A stretch of DNA of 64,000 nt from Gammaproteobacteria bacterium (GTDB taxonomy: Bacteria > Pseudomonadota > Gammaproteobacteria > 21-64-14): positions 1-64,000 of the forward strand of contig JALUXX010000029.1 of assembly GCA_027013145.1 (NCBI GenBank), read 5' to 3'. The translations under genes were made by a program, and so were the position numbers. Below, one piece after another: positions 14,324 through 35,664 of the stretch; within the stretch, counting starts at the first letter, position 1; every line of letters begins with the position of its first letter. The notes under the pieces were generated by a model. The model saw only the letters and a list, made by a program, of their open reading frames with translations, had not been told where the DNA came from and ran no database searches.

Positions 14324-14399
14324 CGGGCGTAACCGGGCGGGGAGCGCCACCCAATCCACGGCGCCAACGCGCAGGGCGGGCCTGCCCCCCGACGACGAC

Positions 14400-15180
14400 G
14401 CCGATTGCGATTTCCATCCGGCGCGGCGGGGACCTTCGAAAACAGACCAAAGCGCCACGGAATCCACCGAACCCACGGACGGGTTTCATTCATTCCGTGC
14501 GTTCCGTGGATTCCGTGGCCTCCTCCTGCGGCGTCGGCCGGGCAAGCCCGGCCCTACCCCGCCTCCCACGCCGATCCAGGCACCGGTAGGGCGGGGCTTG
14601 CCCCGCCGCGATGCCTGGAATCATGATTTCCGTTGGCCGCGGCTGCGTCCCTCGGAGACGGACAAAAGCACCACGGAATCCACCGAACCCACGGACGGGT
14701 TTCATTCATTCCGTGCGTTCCGTGGATTCCGTGGCCTCTTCATGCGGCGTCGGCCGGGCAAGCCCGGCCCTACCCGGTCTCCCACGCCGATCCGGGCACC
14801 GGTAGGGCGGGGCTCGCCCCGCCGACGATGCCCGGGATCGCGATGTTCGCCCGGGCGCGGCTGCGTCCCTCGGAGACGGACAAAAGCGCCACGGAATCCA
14901 CCGAACCCACGGACGGGTTTCATTCATTCCGTGCGTTCCGTGGATTCCGCGGCCTCTTCATGCGGCGTCGGCCGGGCAAGCCCGGCCCTACCCCACCCCC
15001 AACGCCGGCCCGGGCGCCCGTAGGGCGGGCCTCGGCCCGCCGACGACGGCGATCCAAACGACAACGGTCCGATCAACGGCATCGGCCCGTAGGGCGGGGC
15101 TTGCCCCGCCGACGACGTTTGATCCAAACCACGTCCGACCAGGCAACGGCCTCGGCCGGGCAAACCCGGCCCTACGACAT
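14400..15180. repeat. Array of ~217 bp composite repeats (13 bp dyad plus REP palindromes)
   Basis: CCACGGAATCCACCGAACCCACGGACGGGTTTCATTC... starts at 14455, 14671 and 14889, each followed by GGCCGGGCAAGCCCGGCCCTAC; further REPs near 15020, 15089 and 15155. Confidence 0.9.
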
Positions 15181-22444: not shown

Positions 22445-22680
22445 GGGCGGGCCTCGGCCCGCCCACGACTCCCGGAATCGCGATTTCCGGCCGGGGACGG
22501 CGACCTTCGAAAACAGGCGACGGCGCCACGAAACCCACCGAACCCACGGACCGGTTTGATCCATTCCCTGGGTTCCGTGGGTTCCGTGGGTTCCGTGGCC
22601 TCTTCCCGCGCCGTCGGCCGGGCAAGCCCGGCCCTACCCCCCGCCTCCTACGCCGATCCAGGCGACGTCGGTCCGATGGA
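22443..22680. repeat. Second locus of the composite dyad/REP repeat
   Basis: ccacgaaacccac(22526-22538)...gtgggttccgtgg(22586-22598) followed by gtcggccgggcaagcccggccctac. Confidence 0.85.
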
Positions 22681-24433: not shown

Positions 24434-25762
24434 GTGAACCCTGGGCAATCCGGATCCCGAACGTCGCGCCACCCCGCCGTGCAACGGCCGGGGGCCGCAC
24501 CCCCGGCCTCCCCCGAGCCCTTCGACCCCGCCCTGCCCGACGGATCGCTGGAGCGCCTGGCGGCGGACTTTCGCCGCTTCGGCGACGTGTTCGCCCTCCA
24601 CGCCGTGGGCGTGGAGACGCCGATCTACGTGGTGAGCCATCCGGATCACGTCAAGCACGTTCTCGTCAACGCACGCGCCCGCTACGTCAAGGGGCTGGGC
24701 ATCGAGCGCGTGCGCCTGCTGCTCGGCGACGGACTGATGGCGAGCGAGGGCGAAATCTGGCGCCGCCAGCGCGGTCTCGTCCAGCCGACCCTGCACCGGC
24801 GCGCGATCGGGGCGATCGAGGGGTTGATCCGGCGCCGCAACCTCGAGTTGAATGCGCGCTGGCTCGAAGCGGCGGGCCGCGGGGAGACGCTCAACGTCAC
24901 CCGCGCGGTCAGCGACCTGAGCCTGAACATCGTGCTCGAAGTCCTCTTCGGCCGCGACCTCCCCTCCCTCGCGGATGACGGGTCCCGCCCCTTCTCCCTG
25001 CTGACCGAGGAACCGGCCCGCGACTTGCGCTTCGCGGCCCGTTTCCGGGCGCTGCGCGAACCGGTACGCGCCTGTATCCGCCGCCGGCGGGCCGGCGCCG
25101 AAGCGCACAATGACATTCTCGCGCTGTTGATGGCCGCGCGTGAGCGCCACAGCGGCGAACCGATGACCGAGGAGGCCCTGGTCGACGAGGTGATGACCCT
25201 GATCGTCGCCGGGCACGAGACCACCGCCAGCGCATTGAACTGGACCTGGTACCTGCTGGCGTCGCACCCCGGGGTCGAGGCGCAGCTGCACGCGGCCATC
25301 GACGCGGGTGATCCAGCCTATCCGCGCCAGGTGCTGGAGGAGGCGATGCGGCTCTATCCCCCCGGCTGGCTGCTCACCCGGCGCGCGACGACCGACGACG
25401 AGATCGCCGGCTACCGGGTGGCGGCGGGAACGCACGTCTTCATCTCCCCCTACCTGGTCCACCGTCATCCGGCCTTCTGGGACGCACCCGAGGAGTTTCG
25501 TCCCGACCGCTTCGCGGCCGGGGCCGTGGAGGCGCGCCACCGCTACTGCTATCTGCCCTTCGGCGCCGGACCACGCCGGTGCGTCGGGGAGGCGCTGGCG
25601 ATGTTGGAGATGGAGACGCACCTGCGCACCGTCGCCGCGCACCTGCGCCTGCGTCGCACCGACGATGCCGCACCGGCGCTCGATGCGCGCATCAACCTGC
25701 GCACGCGCCGCGACCTGCACCTGCTGCCGCAGCGACGCGGGGACGCCGGGGCGCCGGCATGA
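24434..25762 (+). CDS. Cytochrome P450
   Basis: I-helix LIVAGHETTASALNW, ExxR EEAMRLYPPGW, heme loop FGAGPRRCVGEALAMLE. Confidence 0.95.
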   Translation: MNPGQSGSRTSRHPAVQRPGAAPPASPEPFDPALPDGSLERLAADFRRFGDVFALHAVGVETPIYVVSHPDHVKHVLVNARARYVKGLGIERVRLLLGDGLMASEGEIWRRQRGLVQPTLHRRAIGAIEGLIRRRNLELNARWLEAAGRGETLNVTRAVSDLSLNIVLEVLFGRDLPSLADDGSRPFSLLTEEPARDLRFAARFRALREPVRACIRRRRAGAEAHNDILALLMAARERHSGEPMTEEALVDEVMTLIVAGHETTASALNWTWYLLASHPGVEAQLHAAIDAGDPAYPRQVLEEAMRLYPPGWLLTRRATTDDEIAGYRVAAGTHVFISPYLVHRHPAFWDAPEEFRPDRFAAGAVEARHRYCYLPFGAGPRRCVGEALAMLEMETHLRTVAAHLRLRRTDDAAPALDARINLRTRRDLHLLPQRRGDAGAPA

Positions 25763-27738
25763 AGGCGCCGGCGGAAACGCTCCCGGAGCTGCTGCACCGG
25801 GCGGCCGGCTCGGGGCGGGGGGTCACCTTCCTCGACGGCGCCCGCGGCGCGCACCGGACCGGCTACGACGAACTGGAGGCCCGCGCGCGCGCCCTCCTCG
25901 GCCACCTCCAGGCGCGCGGCGGCGAGCCCGGGCGGGCCGTGGTCCTGCTGCTCGCGGACAACGCCGCCTTCGTCGACGCCTTCTGGGCCTGCCAGCTCGG
26001 CGGTCTGGTGCCGGTACCGGTCGCGGTCGCCAACACCCCCGCCAACCGTCTCAAGCTCTTCCGGGTCTGGGAGGCACTCGAAGATCCGCTGCTGTGCACG
26101 CGCGCCGCGACGCTCGAACGCTACGGCGCCTTCGCCGCCGCCGCAGGCGAAGAGGCCCGCTTCGCCGCGATGGCGGGCGCTGCACTGTGCCTCGACCGTA
26201 TCCCGGCCGCGGCACCCCACGCCCGCATCCAGAACGCGGAGACGGACCGCCCCGCACTGATCCAGTTCTCGTCGGGGTCCACGCGCAGCCCCAAGGGCGT
26301 GATCCTCACGCACGCCAACCTGCTGACCAACATCGACGCGATCGTCTCCGGAATCGGCCTCGGCGCACCCGACGTCACCCTCAGCTGGATGCCGATGACG
26401 CACGACATGGGTCTGATCGGCTTTCACCTCACACCGCTCGCCTGCGCCATCGACCACGTCCTCATGCCCACCGACTCCTTCGTGCGCCGCCCCCTCGCGT
26501 GGCTGCGCGAGGCCGGGGCGCGGGGCGCAACGGTCCTGTGCTCACCGAACTTCGGCTATCGCCACCTGCTCAGGGCCCTGGACGGGGCCGCGCCGGAGCC
26601 CTTCGACCTGAGCGCCGTGCGCCTGATCTTCAACGGCGCGGAACCGATCTCCCCGGGGCTGTGCGCGGAGTTCCTCGACCGCCTGGCGCCCTTCGGGCTG
26701 CGCCGCGAAGCGATGTTCCCGGTCTACGGCCTGGCCGAGGCGAGCCTTGCGGTGACCTTCCCCGCCCCGGGCGCGCCGGTGCACGTGCGCCACATCGATC
26801 GCCGCACGCTGCGCGTCGGTGCGCCCCCGGCCGAATGTCCGGCGTCAGACGCGCACGCACTCGCCCTGATGGGCGTCGGACGCCCGCTGCGTAACTGCGA
26901 ACTCGCCATCCGCGATTTCGACGGGGCGGACCTCGCGCCCGGCACCACCGGACGCATCCTCATCCGCGGCGCCGCGGTCACGTCCGGCTATCACGCCGCG
27001 GACGGCCGCCTCGACCGCAGCGCCTTCAGCGCGGACGGCTGGCTCGACACCGGGGATCTCGGTTTCCTGTACGGCGGCGACCTGTTCGTCGCCGGACGCA
27101 CCAAGGAGATCATCTTCGTCAACGGACAAAACCTGTTTCCGCACGACATCGAGGCCGTATTGCACGAGCATGCGGGCCTCGAACACGGGCGGGTCGCCGC
27201 GTGCGGCGCACCCGCGGACGACGGCGACGGGGAACAACTGCTGGTGTTCGTCGTCCACCGCGGCGGGCTCGAGGCGTTCGTGGAGATCGCACGGCGCGTG
27301 CGCCGCACGCTCGCCGGGCAGCTCGAGCTGGCCGCCGCGCGCGTCCTGCCCGTCGTGGGCCTTCCCAAGACCACGAGCGGCAAGCTGCAGCGCTACCAGC
27401 TCGCGCAACGCTACCGCGACGGGGAGTTCGCCGACCTCGCCCTGCGGCTCGACCGGCTGGAGGGGGGGGCGGCGGGCGGCCCGAAGGCGGACGGCGAGGT
27501 GGAGGCGCAGATCCTCGGGATCTGCGCGGCCTGTCTGCCCGGCGCGGCGATCGGGGCCGACGACAACCTCCTCGAACTGGGGACCGGCTCGCTGACGCTG
27601 GCCCAGATCTACGAGCAGGTGGACGCGCGCTACCCGGGGATGCTCGAGATCACCGACTTCTTCGAGCACCCCACACCGGCGCGCCTCGCCGCCCGCATCC
27701 GCGAGCGCGCCGCGGGGGCGGCCGAGGTTCATTCATAG
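25759..27738 (+). CDS. Fatty-acyl-AMP ligase-like enzyme fused to C-terminal acyl carrier domain
   Basis: ATGA overlap with P450; QFSSGSTRSPKGVILTHANLLTNIDA, SWMPMTHDMGLIGFHLTPL, GRTKEIIFVNGQN; C-terminal DDNLLELGTGSLTLAQIYEQV carrier motif. Confidence 0.9.
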   Translation: MKAPAETLPELLHRAAGSGRGVTFLDGARGAHRTGYDELEARARALLGHLQARGGEPGRAVVLLLADNAAFVDAFWACQLGGLVPVPVAVANTPANRLKLFRVWEALEDPLLCTRAATLERYGAFAAAAGEEARFAAMAGAALCLDRIPAAAPHARIQNAETDRPALIQFSSGSTRSPKGVILTHANLLTNIDAIVSGIGLGAPDVTLSWMPMTHDMGLIGFHLTPLACAIDHVLMPTDSFVRRPLAWLREAGARGATVLCSPNFGYRHLLRALDGAAPEPFDLSAVRLIFNGAEPISPGLCAEFLDRLAPFGLRREAMFPVYGLAEASLAVTFPAPGAPVHVRHIDRRTLRVGAPPAECPASDAHALALMGVGRPLRNCELAIRDFDGADLAPGTTGRILIRGAAVTSGYHAADGRLDRSAFSADGWLDTGDLGFLYGGDLFVAGRTKEIIFVNGQNLFPHDIEAVLHEHAGLEHGRVAACGAPADDGDGEQLLVFVVHRGGLEAFVEIARRVRRTLAGQLELAAARVLPVVGLPKTTSGKLQRYQLAQRYRDGEFADLALRLDRLEGGAAGGPKADGEVEAQILGICAACLPGAAIGADDNLLELGTGSLTLAQIYEQVDARYPGMLEITDFFEHPTPARLAARIRERAAGAAEVHS

Positions 27739-28607
27739 GGTCCTCTCGGATACTTCCACTTGTTGTACATCCACAGCCAATCGGCGGGCGCCGCGCGAAC
27801 CTCGCGTTCCACGGCCGCGGCGTAGGCCGCCACCACCTCGCACCCCGCGAGCGACCCCGGCTTCGCGGCCAGCGGCTCGAAGGTGACCTCGTAGCGCCCG
27901 CGCGCGACCCGCCGCATGGCCACGAAGTACACCGGCGCACGGGTGAGAAAGGCGAGCTTCTGCGGCCCGGTATAAAAAGCCGTGTCCTGTCCGAGGAACC
28001 GGACCCAGCACTTCCCCTCCTCGCGCCGCGGCGTCTGGTCCGCGACCAGGGCCAGCCCGTGCAGCCCGGAGCGGGGGCGCACGGCCGCGGCGAAGAATCG
28101 CTCCGCCGGGATCAGCGAACCGCCGAAGCGCGTACGCCGCTCCACGAGAAGCCGGTCGATGAGTGCACTGCGCGCACGCTTGTAGACGGCGTCGATGGGA
28201 AAAGCGCAGGTCAGCCGGCTGATCAGCAACAGCCATTCCCAGTTGCACTGGTGCGCGGCCAGAAAGATCACCGTACGCTCGCCCCCCCCGCGCGCCAGCC
28301 CGGCGCAGACCTCCGGATTGGTGATTCGCACGCGCCGGCGCAGCTCGGCCTCGCCGATGGTGATCGACTTGACCGTCTCGGCAAGGACGTCGCAGAAGTT
28401 GCGATAGCAACGGCGCGCCAGCCTGCGGCGCCCGGACTCGGTCATTTCCGGGAAGGCGCGACGGAGATTCGCGAGCGTCAGGCGGCGGCGGAAACCGAAC
28501 AGGTGATAGCCGAGGATGTAGATGACGGCACTGAGGCGGTGCAGTACGGGCAGCGGCAGGCGCGAGAGCAGTCTGAGCAGGGTTCGCACGGATTTCGCCG
28601 TTTCCAT
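27729..28607 (-). CDS. LpxL/HtrB-family acyltransferase
   Basis: LAAHQCNWEWLLL (HX4E), LVADQTPRREEGKCWVRFLGQDTAFYTGPQKLAFLTRAPVYF. Confidence 0.9.
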   Translation of the reverse strand: METAKSVRTLLRLLSRLPLPVLHRLSAVIYILGYHLFGFRRRLTLANLRRAFPEMTESGRRRLARRCYRNFCDVLAETVKSITIGEAELRRRVRITNPEVCAGLARGGGERTVIFLAAHQCNWEWLLLISRLTCAFPIDAVYKRARSALIDRLLVERRTRFGGSLIPAERFFAAAVRPRSGLHGLALVADQTPRREEGKCWVRFLGQDTAFYTGPQKLAFLTRAPVYFVAMRRVARGRYEVTFEPLAAKPGSLAGCEVVAAYAAAVEREVRAAPADWLWMYNKWKYPRGPYE

Positions 28608-28774
28608 CGCAGCCGCCGCGCTGGACCGGGGAACCGGGCCCGCGCTACCCTGACCTGCACCGCGCCCCGCAGGCCGCGGGTCCGCCGCACCGGCGCGGGT
28701 GTCCCCGCGGCAGCCGCCGCGCGCGGCGCGATTGGAACCGGCGGTATCATAGTTTCGGCGCCCGATACGGTCAA

Positions 28775-29527
28775 ATGAGACAGCCCCCCTTCGAGATCCG
28801 CGACATCCACCCCTGGCGCCTGGAACACCCGGGATTCCTGACCCTGGAGGGCGACGACATCTGCATCTGGCGTCTGCCCGCGGCGGCGGACCCGCGCAGC
28901 GTCGCCCCGCTGTGGGCGGTGCTTGCGCCCGAGGAGCGCGAGCGTGCACGGCGCCTGCGGCGTCCGGAGGACCATACCACCTTCGTGATCGCGCGCGGTG
29001 CGCTGCGCATGCTCACCGCGGCCTACCTGGATCGACCGCCGTTGAGCATCGAGTTCGAGTACGGACCGCGCGGCAAACCCGCGCTGGCACCCTGCGGTAT
29101 TCCGCTGCAGTTCAATCTCACGCACACCGGCGAGCTGTGCCTGATCGCCTTCAGCCGCCGGCGCATCCTGGGTGTGGACGCCGAGCGCCTCGACCGCCCG
29201 CTGCGCGTGGAATCCTTCGCCCGGCGCATCCTCGGCGCGCAGGAGCTGGAGGCCTTCGCGCGTGTGCCCGAACCGATGCGCCGGCGCGCACTCTTGGAGG
29301 CCTGGGTGCGCAAGGAGGCCTACCTCAAGGCCACGGGGGAAGGCCTCGCCGGCGGCCCGGGGACAGTGGCGGTCTCGCTGGCCCCGGATGAGCCGGCGCG
29401 TTTCCTCGACGGCCCACCCGTTGCGGCCGGGTGGGACCTCTGGGCCCTGGACCTCGGGCCGGGCTACGTCGGAGCACTGGCCGCCTCCCCAGGCTCGACC
29501 CGGCGACCCCCGACCAATTTCACCTGA
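28775..29527 (+). CDS. Sfp-type 4'-phosphopantetheinyl transferase
   Basis: FNLTHTGELCLIAFSRRRILGVDAERL; LEAWVRKEAYLKATGEGL. Confidence 0.92.
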   Translation: MRQPPFEIRDIHPWRLEHPGFLTLEGDDICIWRLPAAADPRSVAPLWAVLAPEERERARRLRRPEDHTTFVIARGALRMLTAAYLDRPPLSIEFEYGPRGKPALAPCGIPLQFNLTHTGELCLIAFSRRRILGVDAERLDRPLRVESFARRILGAQELEAFARVPEPMRRRALLEAWVRKEAYLKATGEGLAGGPGTVAVSLAPDEPARFLDGPPVAAGWDLWALDLGPGYVGALAASPGSTRRPPTNFT

Positions 29528-33496: not shown

Positions 33497-33628
33497 GCCG
33501 CGCGCCGAAGGCGGGCCGACTCCGACCCGGGTCCAGACGCAGTGGAACGATCCGGTTCGGGGTCAGAGTCGTCCGTGGAGGACCGCACAAGGAACCGGCG
33601 GCACTGCCGGGACGACTCCGGCCCCGGG
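33497..33628. repeat. Isolated copy of the 143 bp repeat
   Basis: gtggaacgatccggttcggggtcagagtcgtccg...ggcactgccgggacgactccggcccc matches 35131-35510 in the same orientation. Confidence 0.85.
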
Positions 33629-33785
33629 CAGGGGGCGGGGGCAGCGTCACCGCCCCCGAGCGCCGACGGGGCCCTGTAGCCTCTACCTCCGGGCGATGAC
33701 CCCGACCCCGGTCGTTCCGACGACGGATACGGTACCGGCGGCGCAACCCGACCGCCCTCGGTCCCGGGAAACCACGCCTGTCCGG

Positions 33786-34007
33786 ATTTTTTACACCGAC
33801 TGAGGTCGGAAGTTATTTATTTTACAGTAAGTTGCTAGCACACGCCGCGTGTGTGCCACCTTCTCGCCGATCCGCTTGTCATCGTCATCACTATTTCATC
33901 CGGCGCTGGCGCACACGTCCGTATGGGGCGTCAGGGGATTGTATCTACGGTATTTTTTTACAGACCCGCAGCCCCGCTACGGCCGGGGAATGTCACGAAT
34001 CTTTACA
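33786..34007. promoter_or_regulatory. AT-rich region with four TTTACA motifs, possible activator-binding sites
   Basis: ttttttacaccgactgaggtcgg, ttttacagtaag, tttttttacagac, tctttacacccac within ~220 bp. Confidence 0.4.
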
Positions 34008-34080
34008 CCCACGGGCCTCCCGGGCCGGAGCTGCCCGCGGTTGTTCCCGTATTGCACTGAATTCCCGAAAGTTCTCGTTA

Positions 34081-34097
34081 TTGGCATCGTTCTTGCT
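34081..34097 (+). promoter_or_regulatory. Candidate sigma54 -24/-12 promoter of the PEP-CTERM gene
   Basis: tTGGCATcgttcTTGCT, close to the TGGCAC-N5-TTGCW consensus. Confidence 0.65.
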
Positions 34098-34212
34098 CAT
34101 CCCAGATTCGACCGGCGATCACCGGACTTCTTCCCAATCCGGCCGGGCACCAACGACGCCGCGCCCACTAACAGGACGCGGAATCATCCAAACCCTTGGG
34201 GGGTACGACGTC

Positions 34213-35061
34213 ATGAAGAAGTGGTTGAACCGATTCGCGGCGCTCCTGCTCGGCCTCGCCGCCACGGCGGTCCAGGCGGGCCCGATCAACGTTCTCTGGT
34301 ACACGGGCGGGGTCACCAACAGCCCGAACTACAAAAACAACATCAACAATCTGATCTCCCAGGCCGCGGCCGCCCCGGGCCACAACACCTGGTCGATCAC
34401 CTACTGGGATTCGGGCTCGATGCCGAGCGGCAGCTACAACGCGCTCGTCGTCGCCTCGCCGCAGGGCGGCTGGGCTACCTATCCGAACTACGGCGCGCTG
34501 GTCAGTGCCGCCCCGACCTTCGGCGACCGCATCATGGTCACCGGCCAGGACGCCGACTGGCACTACCTGAACGGCCCGGGCGCGACTCCGTTCAACGGCC
34601 CGCAGGGCTTTCTGATCGACGCGGTCAACTGGGCCGGTTCGGGCACCGGGCTGGGGGCCGTCCTGCTCGGCGCGGACTCGAGCGATTACACCAGTGAAGG
34701 CGGCAACATCCTCGCGATGTTGACCGGCCTGGGCAGCGAGACAGGGCACGGCACCAACACGGTCAAGATCCCCGCGGCCTTCGCTTCGTTTCCGATCAAC
34801 CAGGGGCTGACCTCGGCCGGCATCAGCGGGTGGAACACCTCGGCGCACAACGGTTGGACCGGGTTCGACACCGGCCTCTGGACCGGGATCAACACCAACT
34901 CGGACGGCACCACCGCCATCACGCTGGTCTCCAAGGCCACCGCAGGCGGCGGTACCGGCGGCGGCACCCCGAGCGTGCCCGACCCGGCCACGCTCGCGCT
35001 GATCGGCATCGGACTGCCCGGACTGGGCTGGTCGTTGCGCCGCGGGCGACGCCGCGGCTGA
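34213..35061 (+). CDS. PEP-CTERM-like secreted protein (PDP variant)
   Basis: Signal peptide MKKWLNRFAALLLGLAATAVQA; C-terminus SVPDPATLALIGIGLPGLGWSLRRGRRRG (motif, TM, Arg cluster). Confidence 0.85.
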   Translation: MKKWLNRFAALLLGLAATAVQAGPINVLWYTGGVTNSPNYKNNINNLISQAAAAPGHNTWSITYWDSGSMPSGSYNALVVASPQGGWATYPNYGALVSAAPTFGDRIMVTGQDADWHYLNGPGATPFNGPQGFLIDAVNWAGSGTGLGAVLLGADSSDYTSEGGNILAMLTGLGSETGHGTNTVKIPAAFASFPINQGLTSAGISGWNTSAHNGWTGFDTGLWTGINTNSDGTTAITLVSKATAGGGTGGGTPSVPDPATLALIGIGLPGLGWSLRRGRRRG

Positions 35062-35117: not shown

Positions 35118-35130
35118 GTGCCCCGGGGTC

Positions 35131-35510
35131 GTGGAACGGGCTGGTTCGGGGTCAGAGTCGTCCGGTGAGGACCGCGCAAGGAACCCGCGACACTGCCGGG
35201 ACGACTCCGACCCCGGGCGTGGGGTGGCACCGCGCCGCGAAGGCGCGACGACTCCGATCCCGATCCAACCGTAGTGGAACGGGCTGGTTCGGGGTCAGAG
35301 TCGTCCGGTGAGGACCGCACAAGGAACCGGCGGCACTGCCGGGACGACTCCGACCCCGGGCGTGGGGTGGCACCACGCTGCGAAGGCACGCCGACTCTGA
35401 CCCCGATCCGGACGAAGTGGAACGAGCTGGTTCGGGGTCAGAGTCGTCCGTCGAAGACCGCGCAAGGAACCGGCGACACTGCCGGGACGACTCCGACCCC
35501 GGGCGTGGGG
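35131..35510. repeat. Tandem array of 143 bp repeat units (third truncated)
   Basis: Unit starts at 35131, 35274 and 35417; each carries GGGGTCAGAGTCGTCC ... GGACGACTCCGACCCC. Confidence 0.93.
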
Positions 35511-35512
35511 AC

Positions 35513-35664
35513 GGGGTCGGAGTCACCGCCCATCGGCCGAGGCGGATCCGCGTCGCGTTTTCCTGCGGGGGGCGGTGGTACGGGTCGGTTGGGGGTCGGA
35601 GTCACCGCCCATCGGCCGAGGCGGAACGCCGTCGCGTTTTCCTGCGGGCGGTGACTCCGACCCC
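35513..35664. repeat. GGGGTCGGAGTCACCGCCC repeat pair ending in a perfect 19 bp inverted repeat
   Basis: Copies at 35513 and 35592; GGGCGGTGACTCCGACCCC at 35646-35664. Confidence 0.9.

Follow-up and report, generated by a model that had tools for sequence, protein, structure and literature searches.

A conserved gene set for a cytochrome P450, a fatty-acyl-AMP ligase-carrier fusion, and a late acyltransferase as a candidate route from free fatty acids to lipid A

What do four adjacent genes encoding a cytochrome P450, a fatty-acyl-AMP ligase (FAAL) fused to an acyl carrier protein (ACP), an acyltransferase of the LpxL/LpxM superfamily (PF03279), and a 4'-phosphopantetheinyl transferase (PPTase) do together in a gammaproteobacterium, and which molecule would receive the acyl chain that they appear to handle? 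The genes lie in a stretch of 64,000 nucleotides (nt) of contig JALUXX010000029.1 (assembly GCA_027013145.1), referred to here as the window. A first-pass annotation, made from the DNA letters, had described them as a self-contained set that could activate a fatty acid, oxidize it on the carrier, and transfer it to an unknown acceptor; all four genes were found where it had placed them, each with a Pfam match above the cut-off. We propose that a salvaged acid is loaded onto the fused carrier, usually oxidized by the P450, and transferred to lipid A as a secondary chain, a reading that on balance is probably correct.

A scan of the genome collection confirmed at least 579 relatives of the FAAL-ACP. 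The neighborhoods of the best 80 of these were surveyed together with other loci, and the linkage counts given here refer to 104 loci. The recurring neighbors were P450s, PPTases, and acyltransferases of two kinds, PF03279 and DUF374. The P450 gene stood directly upstream of the FAAL-ACP gene in 84 loci and was not next to it in the other 20, some of which are contig ends. A lipid-A-type late acyltransferase was encoded within 4 kb of the FAAL-ACP in 90 loci (the exceptions include contig ends), with DUF374 (the LpxJ family) in 60 and PF03279 in 30, and the FAAL tree implies no fewer than 11 swaps between the two kinds. The median gap between the P450 and FAAL reading frames was -3 nt (79 loci), and the distances of the two proteins were tightly correlated (Mantel r, 0.91; permutation maximum, 0.31). 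In 10 loci (L032, L035, L037, L047, and others), a VanZ-like membrane protein roughly 335 amino acids (aa) long was encoded directly 3' of the FAAL-ACP, about 1.5 kb after it. The order seen in the window, P450 and FAAL-ACP followed by a convergent PF03279 gene and then the PPTase, was also present in the betaproteobacterial loci L024, L026, L030, L038, and L040, which fall into one group with the window in the FAAL phylogeny (FastTree support only, 94). A PPTase orthologue likewise adjoins the acyltransferase gene in a congener genome (G001). Dozens of loci, belonging to different genera, keep the P450-FAAL coupling and the acyltransferase, so that the four-gene grouping is not due to chance. 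The genes do cluster in relatives, as the first-pass annotation had proposed to check, and the set is conserved and widespread, recurring in many soil and water bacteria.

Because the 80 surveyed loci were top matches, we also drew 369 Gammaproteobacteria evenly and counted as carriers the genomes with a FAAL-ACP match at an E value of ≤1e-110. There were 26 of these (about 7%), and a late acyltransferase gene adjoined the FAAL-ACP in 22, 18 with a P450 and 4 without (G167, G196, G300, and G344). As for the remaining carriers, the FAAL gene was cut by a contig end in G205 and G311, G117 had a long frame resembling a nonribosomal peptide synthetase (NRPS), and the congener G001 had its genes on two contigs, one ending in the FAAL-ACP and the other carrying the acyltransferase-PPTase pair beside toxin-antitoxin-like genes. 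The G001 cassette is rearranged or was split by the assembly, and its genome contains no P450, so that it does not demonstrate an operon lacking the P450. Such operons were seen at L157, L158, L159, and L161. A FabH-like (KAS III) gene overlaps the 3' end of the FAAL-ACP gene at two loci where the P450 is missing, L157 (9330-10298) and L100 (11941-12909), which suggests chain extension replacing oxidation. DUF374 was present in 21 of the 26 carriers versus 29 of the 343 other genomes (Fisher P, 3e-16, uncorrected for relatedness). Since 22 of the 26 carriers have the FAAL-ACP and a late acyltransferase side by side, four of them without a P450, these two genes are the core, and the P450 is a usual but optional tailoring enzyme. 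The picture of a self-contained set thus holds in that the genes are conserved as a unit, but the P450 proved nonessential to it, and the FAAL-ACP and late acyltransferase are what is kept most constantly.

The acceptor is another point on which the first-pass annotation needs correction, since the alternation of PF03279 with DUF374/LpxJ proteins points to lipid A. PMC6148475 presents DUF374 as the LpxJ family of late lipid A acyltransferases, with W60, H61, D86, D132, W172, and D173 as essential residues, and these were kept in 72 to 76 of the 76 cassette DUF374 proteins. That two families of the lipid A type have repeatedly replaced each other next to one carrier is most readily accounted for if both do the same work. 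LpxL and LpxM take their acyl chain from acyl-ACP and PatA takes it from coenzyme A (PMC9597891); a lipid-A-type transfer therefore fits a FAAL-ACP. The window acyltransferase matched PF03279 with about 114 to 115 bits (cut-off, 22.3), and the HX4E motif (H119...E124) was invariant in 19 aligned cassette enzymes of this family, whose best PDB profile match was LpxM (2.4e-19, versus 3e-5 for PatA). LpxM was also the top fold match (2e-12) of the structure predicted for the window enzyme (pLDDT, 89). Whether the window genome lacks another LpxL, a question the earlier annotation had left, could be answered: a separate canonical LpxL is encoded on contig C11 (277 bits, versus 114 for the cassette enzyme), in a neighborhood that looks heptose/lipopolysaccharide-like, its genes being named from their sequences and not by family search. 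The cassette enzyme would therefore suit a second, LpxM-like slot. In several near-complete carriers, no strong late acyltransferase was found besides the cassette enzyme. This applies to G344 (100% complete), in which the cassette PF03279 protein is the only one over the cut-off and DUF374 is absent, and less strictly to G063, G196, G209, and G299, in which only weak PF03279 matches (22 to 32 bits) accompany the cassette DUF374.

The route would comprise four steps. The PPTase, to judge from its family, would make holo-ACP at Ser611, its presumed target, which did not vary across a comparison set of 81 FAAL-ACPs encoded next to a P450. The FAAL domain would then adenylate a free fatty acid, salvaged or hydrolyzed, and load it onto its own fused carrier. 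Both reactions are well established for FAAL-ACP didomains. By its sequence, the ligase half is assigned to the FAAL group and not to the acyl-CoA ligases, with a fused carrier and its conserved Ser: the PDB relatives listed at an E value of ≤1e-30 were FAALs or FAAL-type loading domains, and the best NCBIfam FAAL model, PRK09192, scored 363, under its cut-off of 600. In the third step, which would take place in most loci but not all, the carrier-bound chain would be oxidized by the P450, most likely by hydroxylation, as the tight coupling of the two genes suggests. On the strength of AGHETT (the acid-alcohol pair of the I helix), ExxR, and the Cys loop FxxGxxxCxG, we assign the P450 to the monooxygenase type, which requires a redox partner; no fused reductase was found in the window protein. 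A second P450, 40% identical to it, is encoded elsewhere in the window genome (G000:C64; L119, 6448-7824), with no FAAL neighbor within the 14 kb seen. Finally, the PF03279 enzyme would move the acyl group from the FAAL-ACP to lipid A as a secondary chain, filling an LpxM-like slot beside the housekeeping LpxL, and in other lineages an enzyme of the DUF374/LpxJ family would do so. What we observed are the genes with their motifs, the conservation of their linkage, and the exchange of one acyltransferase type for the other; we infer the acceptor, the chain, and the position of its oxidation. More broadly, the cassette could represent a widespread and undescribed route of Beta- and Gammaproteobacteria, leading from free fatty acids through the FAAL-ACP and on-carrier P450 oxidation to lipid A, with exchangeable LpxM-like and LpxJ transferases and with oxidized secondary chains independent of the ACP pool of fatty acid synthesis. 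This wider proposal is tentative, and we give it slightly less than an even chance.

Several points weigh against the lipid A route. The cassette PF03279 enzyme scored far under the cut-offs of both the LpxL model (TIGR02207; 70.7 versus 297.8) and the LpxM model (TIGR02208; 48.1 versus 336). LpxC was present in all 24 carriers tested, but most genomes of the class should have it, so that it discriminates little. A copy on a Diaphorobacter plasmid is embedded among sphingolipid genes, and the 18 kb seen there contain no late acyltransferase. The action of the P450 on an ACP-bound chain rather than on a free acid is putative. Enzymes of the PF03279/LPLAT group also acylate other acceptors, PatA acting on phosphatidylinositol mannoside and VexE on UDP-GlcNAc (PMC9597891).

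The last precedents and the divergence of the cassette enzyme from LpxL and LpxM favor an alternative in which the same logic of activation and transfer serves another envelope glycolipid or phospholipid, such as a VexE-like capsule anchor, an ApeD-like lipid anchor of the aryl polyene type, or a PatA-like glycolipid. ApeD belongs to the Escherichia coli aryl polyene cluster, which also includes genes for an acyl-ACP synthetase and for ACPs (PMC8253772), and at L083 and L091 the FAAL-ACP adjoins a xanthomonadin-like cluster (chorismatase, FAD halogenase-like, GT2, and PF03279 genes). We nevertheless consider this alternative unlikely, if a serious contender, given the alternation with DUF374/LpxJ, whose characterized members act on lipid A (PMC6148475), the position of LpxM as the closest solved relative, the lack of glycan or polyene genes common to the surroundings of the set, and the genomes in which the cassette enzyme is the sole strong late acyltransferase.

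The P450-oxidized acyl-ACP could instead be the N-acyl donor for ceramides. On the Diaphorobacter plasmid pDCB2, the PPTase, P450, and FAAL-ACP genes lie inside a cluster with a serine palmitoyltransferase (SPT; equivalog score, 582 bits; cut-off, 500), its ACP, an acyl-ACP ligase, and LptF/G-like permeases, and at that locus ceramide may be the acceptor. SPT loci also occur in the window genome and its congener, and SPT and FAAL-ACP co-occurred slightly more often than by chance (P = 0.04). However, SPT was found in just 4 of the 26 carriers and 16 SPT genomes had no FAAL-ACP of this kind, so that ceramide is unlikely as the general acceptor and a general sphingolipid function was rejected; moreover, the enzyme at the window locus is of the O-acyltransferase type, and the SPT locus of the window genome, which has a separate acyl-ACP ligase, lies on a different contig. 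We regard this explanation as quite improbable. In Diaphorobacter sp. JS3051, locus L103 (NZ_CP065408.1, 40962-58872) belongs to a conjugative IncP plasmid, so that the set sits on a mobile element there. SPT and acyl-ACP ligase genes were seen at the sphingolipid loci of both the window genome (G000:C5; L116) and the congener (G001:C61; L117), and LptF/G-like, short-chain dehydrogenase/reductase, and ACP genes were seen at the latter.

A different order of events, in which the P450 oxidizes the free fatty acid first and the FAAL-ACP salvages the product for the acyltransferase, would agree with the presence of CYP102-type free-acid hydroxylases among the solved-structure relatives of the P450 and with the acceptance of functionalized acids by FAAL-ACPs (AmbG; PMC11837247). 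The near-fixed translational coupling and the correlated evolution of P450 and FAAL suit on-carrier action, though they are compatible with either order, and we give the free-acid-first version very little weight. An orphan loading module of an NRPS or polyketide synthase (PKS), or a decayed natural-product cluster, is extremely improbable and was rejected for want of partner domains: distant FAAL-ACP relatives do load NRPS/PKS lines and a Diaphorobacter homologue carries an NRPS annotation, but ketosynthase, condensation, and adenylation domains are absent from the window set and the recurrent neighbors examined, the motifs are intact, the set is conserved in dozens of loci, and a late acyltransferase is linked in 90 of the 104.

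The features of the window locus are listed in Table 1. The ATGA overlap of the P450 and FAAL-ACP genes (25759-25762) and the 10 nt shared by the 3' ends of the FAAL-ACP and convergent acyltransferase genes (27729-27738) were both seen as first described, and the four-gene set indeed has no ketosynthase or condensation domain and no second adenylation domain. The adjoining open reading frames are PAP2, an unassigned barrel-like frame, prsK, and prsR. Their use as a clue to an envelope or exopolysaccharide target did not stand, because they flank the set only within the window's own genus and are uninformative on the target; for the same reason PAP2 and the barrel were rejected as members of the set, as was an exopolysaccharide/PEP-CTERM link via prsK/prsR. 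A PEP-CTERM-like protein is encoded just 3' of prsK/prsR (33832-35061), and repeat families of 216 and 143 nt, tandem and dispersed and apparently intergenic, occur at 14378-15027, 22498-22645, 33539-33681, and 35128-35556.

Table 1. Features of the four-gene set in the window
Feature	Position	Strand	Evidence
Cytochrome P450, 442 aa, monooxygenase type (predicted)	24434..25762	+	Pfam p450 1.9e-65; motif residues conserved in 81 homologues
FAAL-ACP didomain, 659 aa: fatty-acyl-AMP ligase (~residues 5-560) and carrier (593-647)	25759..27738	+	Pfam AMP-binding 1.9e-48, PP-binding 3.8e-8
Ser611 codon in LGTGSLT, predicted phosphopantetheine site	27589..27591	+	Sequence; Ser invariant in 81 homologues
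PF03279 (LpxL/LpxM superfamily) late acyltransferase with HX4E, convergent	27729..28607	-	Pfam Lip_A_acyltrans 4.6e-33; invariant H119/E124
Sfp/HetI-type 4'-phosphopantetheinyl transferase	28775..29527	+	Pfam ACPS 6.3e-15; NCBIfam HetI-like 6.8e-38, under its cut-off

Late lipid A acylation normally draws on the housekeeping acyl-ACP pool, and to our knowledge the sole exception with a dedicated carrier is rhizobial AcpXL. The lipid A route proposed here, if true, would be a second and unrelated dedicated-carrier route, one that takes ready-made fatty acids and oxidizes them. It would tie the salvage of lipids to the structure of the outer membrane in about 7% of the Gammaproteobacteria sampled, would lead one to expect new lipid A structures in organisms in which this lipid may be unexamined, and would assign to P450s a function in outer-membrane lipids not described in the open-access literature searched. 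No description of the P450/FAAL-ACP/late acyltransferase set was found in that literature (subscription papers were outside the search), nor did the searches return a paper joining P450 with FAAL and LPLAT, P450 with LpxO and lipid A, or sphingolipid with P450; among the papers listed more loosely for P450, FAAL, and lipid A, none presents the set in its title or abstract.

Among known systems, the natural-product FAAL-ACPs HapA, NocH, and AmbG share the didomain architecture and the expected loading chemistry of the cassette, but they feed PKS/NRPS lines, and the 2025 review (PMC11837247) mentions no P450 and, in its accessible part, no lipid A acyltransferase as partner. The E. coli aryl polyene cluster likewise groups an acyl-ACP synthetase, an ACP, and an LPLAT, with a proposed outer-membrane lipid anchor; unlike the cassette, it has a full polyketide-type ketosynthase and dehydratase machinery and no P450 among the genes listed (PMC8253772). 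In the AasR-AcpR-SPT entry into sphingolipids, a dedicated acyl-ACP ligase and ACP again feed one lipid enzyme, but there the ligase and the ACP have a gene each, they work with SPT, and the paper does not mention a P450 (PMC9386255). The LpxJ family supplies the alternative acyltransferase of the 60 DUF374 loci with its essential residues kept, yet the accessible part of PMC6148475 describes no dedicated FAAL-ACP or P450 with it, and the window carries PF03279 instead. Closest is the AcpXL-LpxXL system, which adds a special very-long-chain acyl group to lipid A in rhizobia and in which the genes for a dedicated ACP and for an acyltransferase of the LpxL superfamily lie together (PMC5613085, PMC11901934). 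In that system FabF/FabZ-XL elongation makes the chain while it is held by a free ACP, whereas in the cassette the FAAL would load a ready-made acid onto a fused carrier, with P450 tailoring and an acyltransferase that may be DUF374. The PP-binding domain of the cassette, with its invariant Ser, is a dedicated carrier too, but a different protein from AcpXL, and in the window an LpxL-superfamily (PF03279) gene is likewise clustered with it. Because both carrier and ligase differ and clustered FabF/FabZ elongation genes are absent from the window set and the recurrent neighbors examined, the cassette is not an AcpXL-LpxXL system. By this comparison, AcpXL-LpxXL appears to be its nearest working analogue, which the cassette would resemble in how it works and not by homology.

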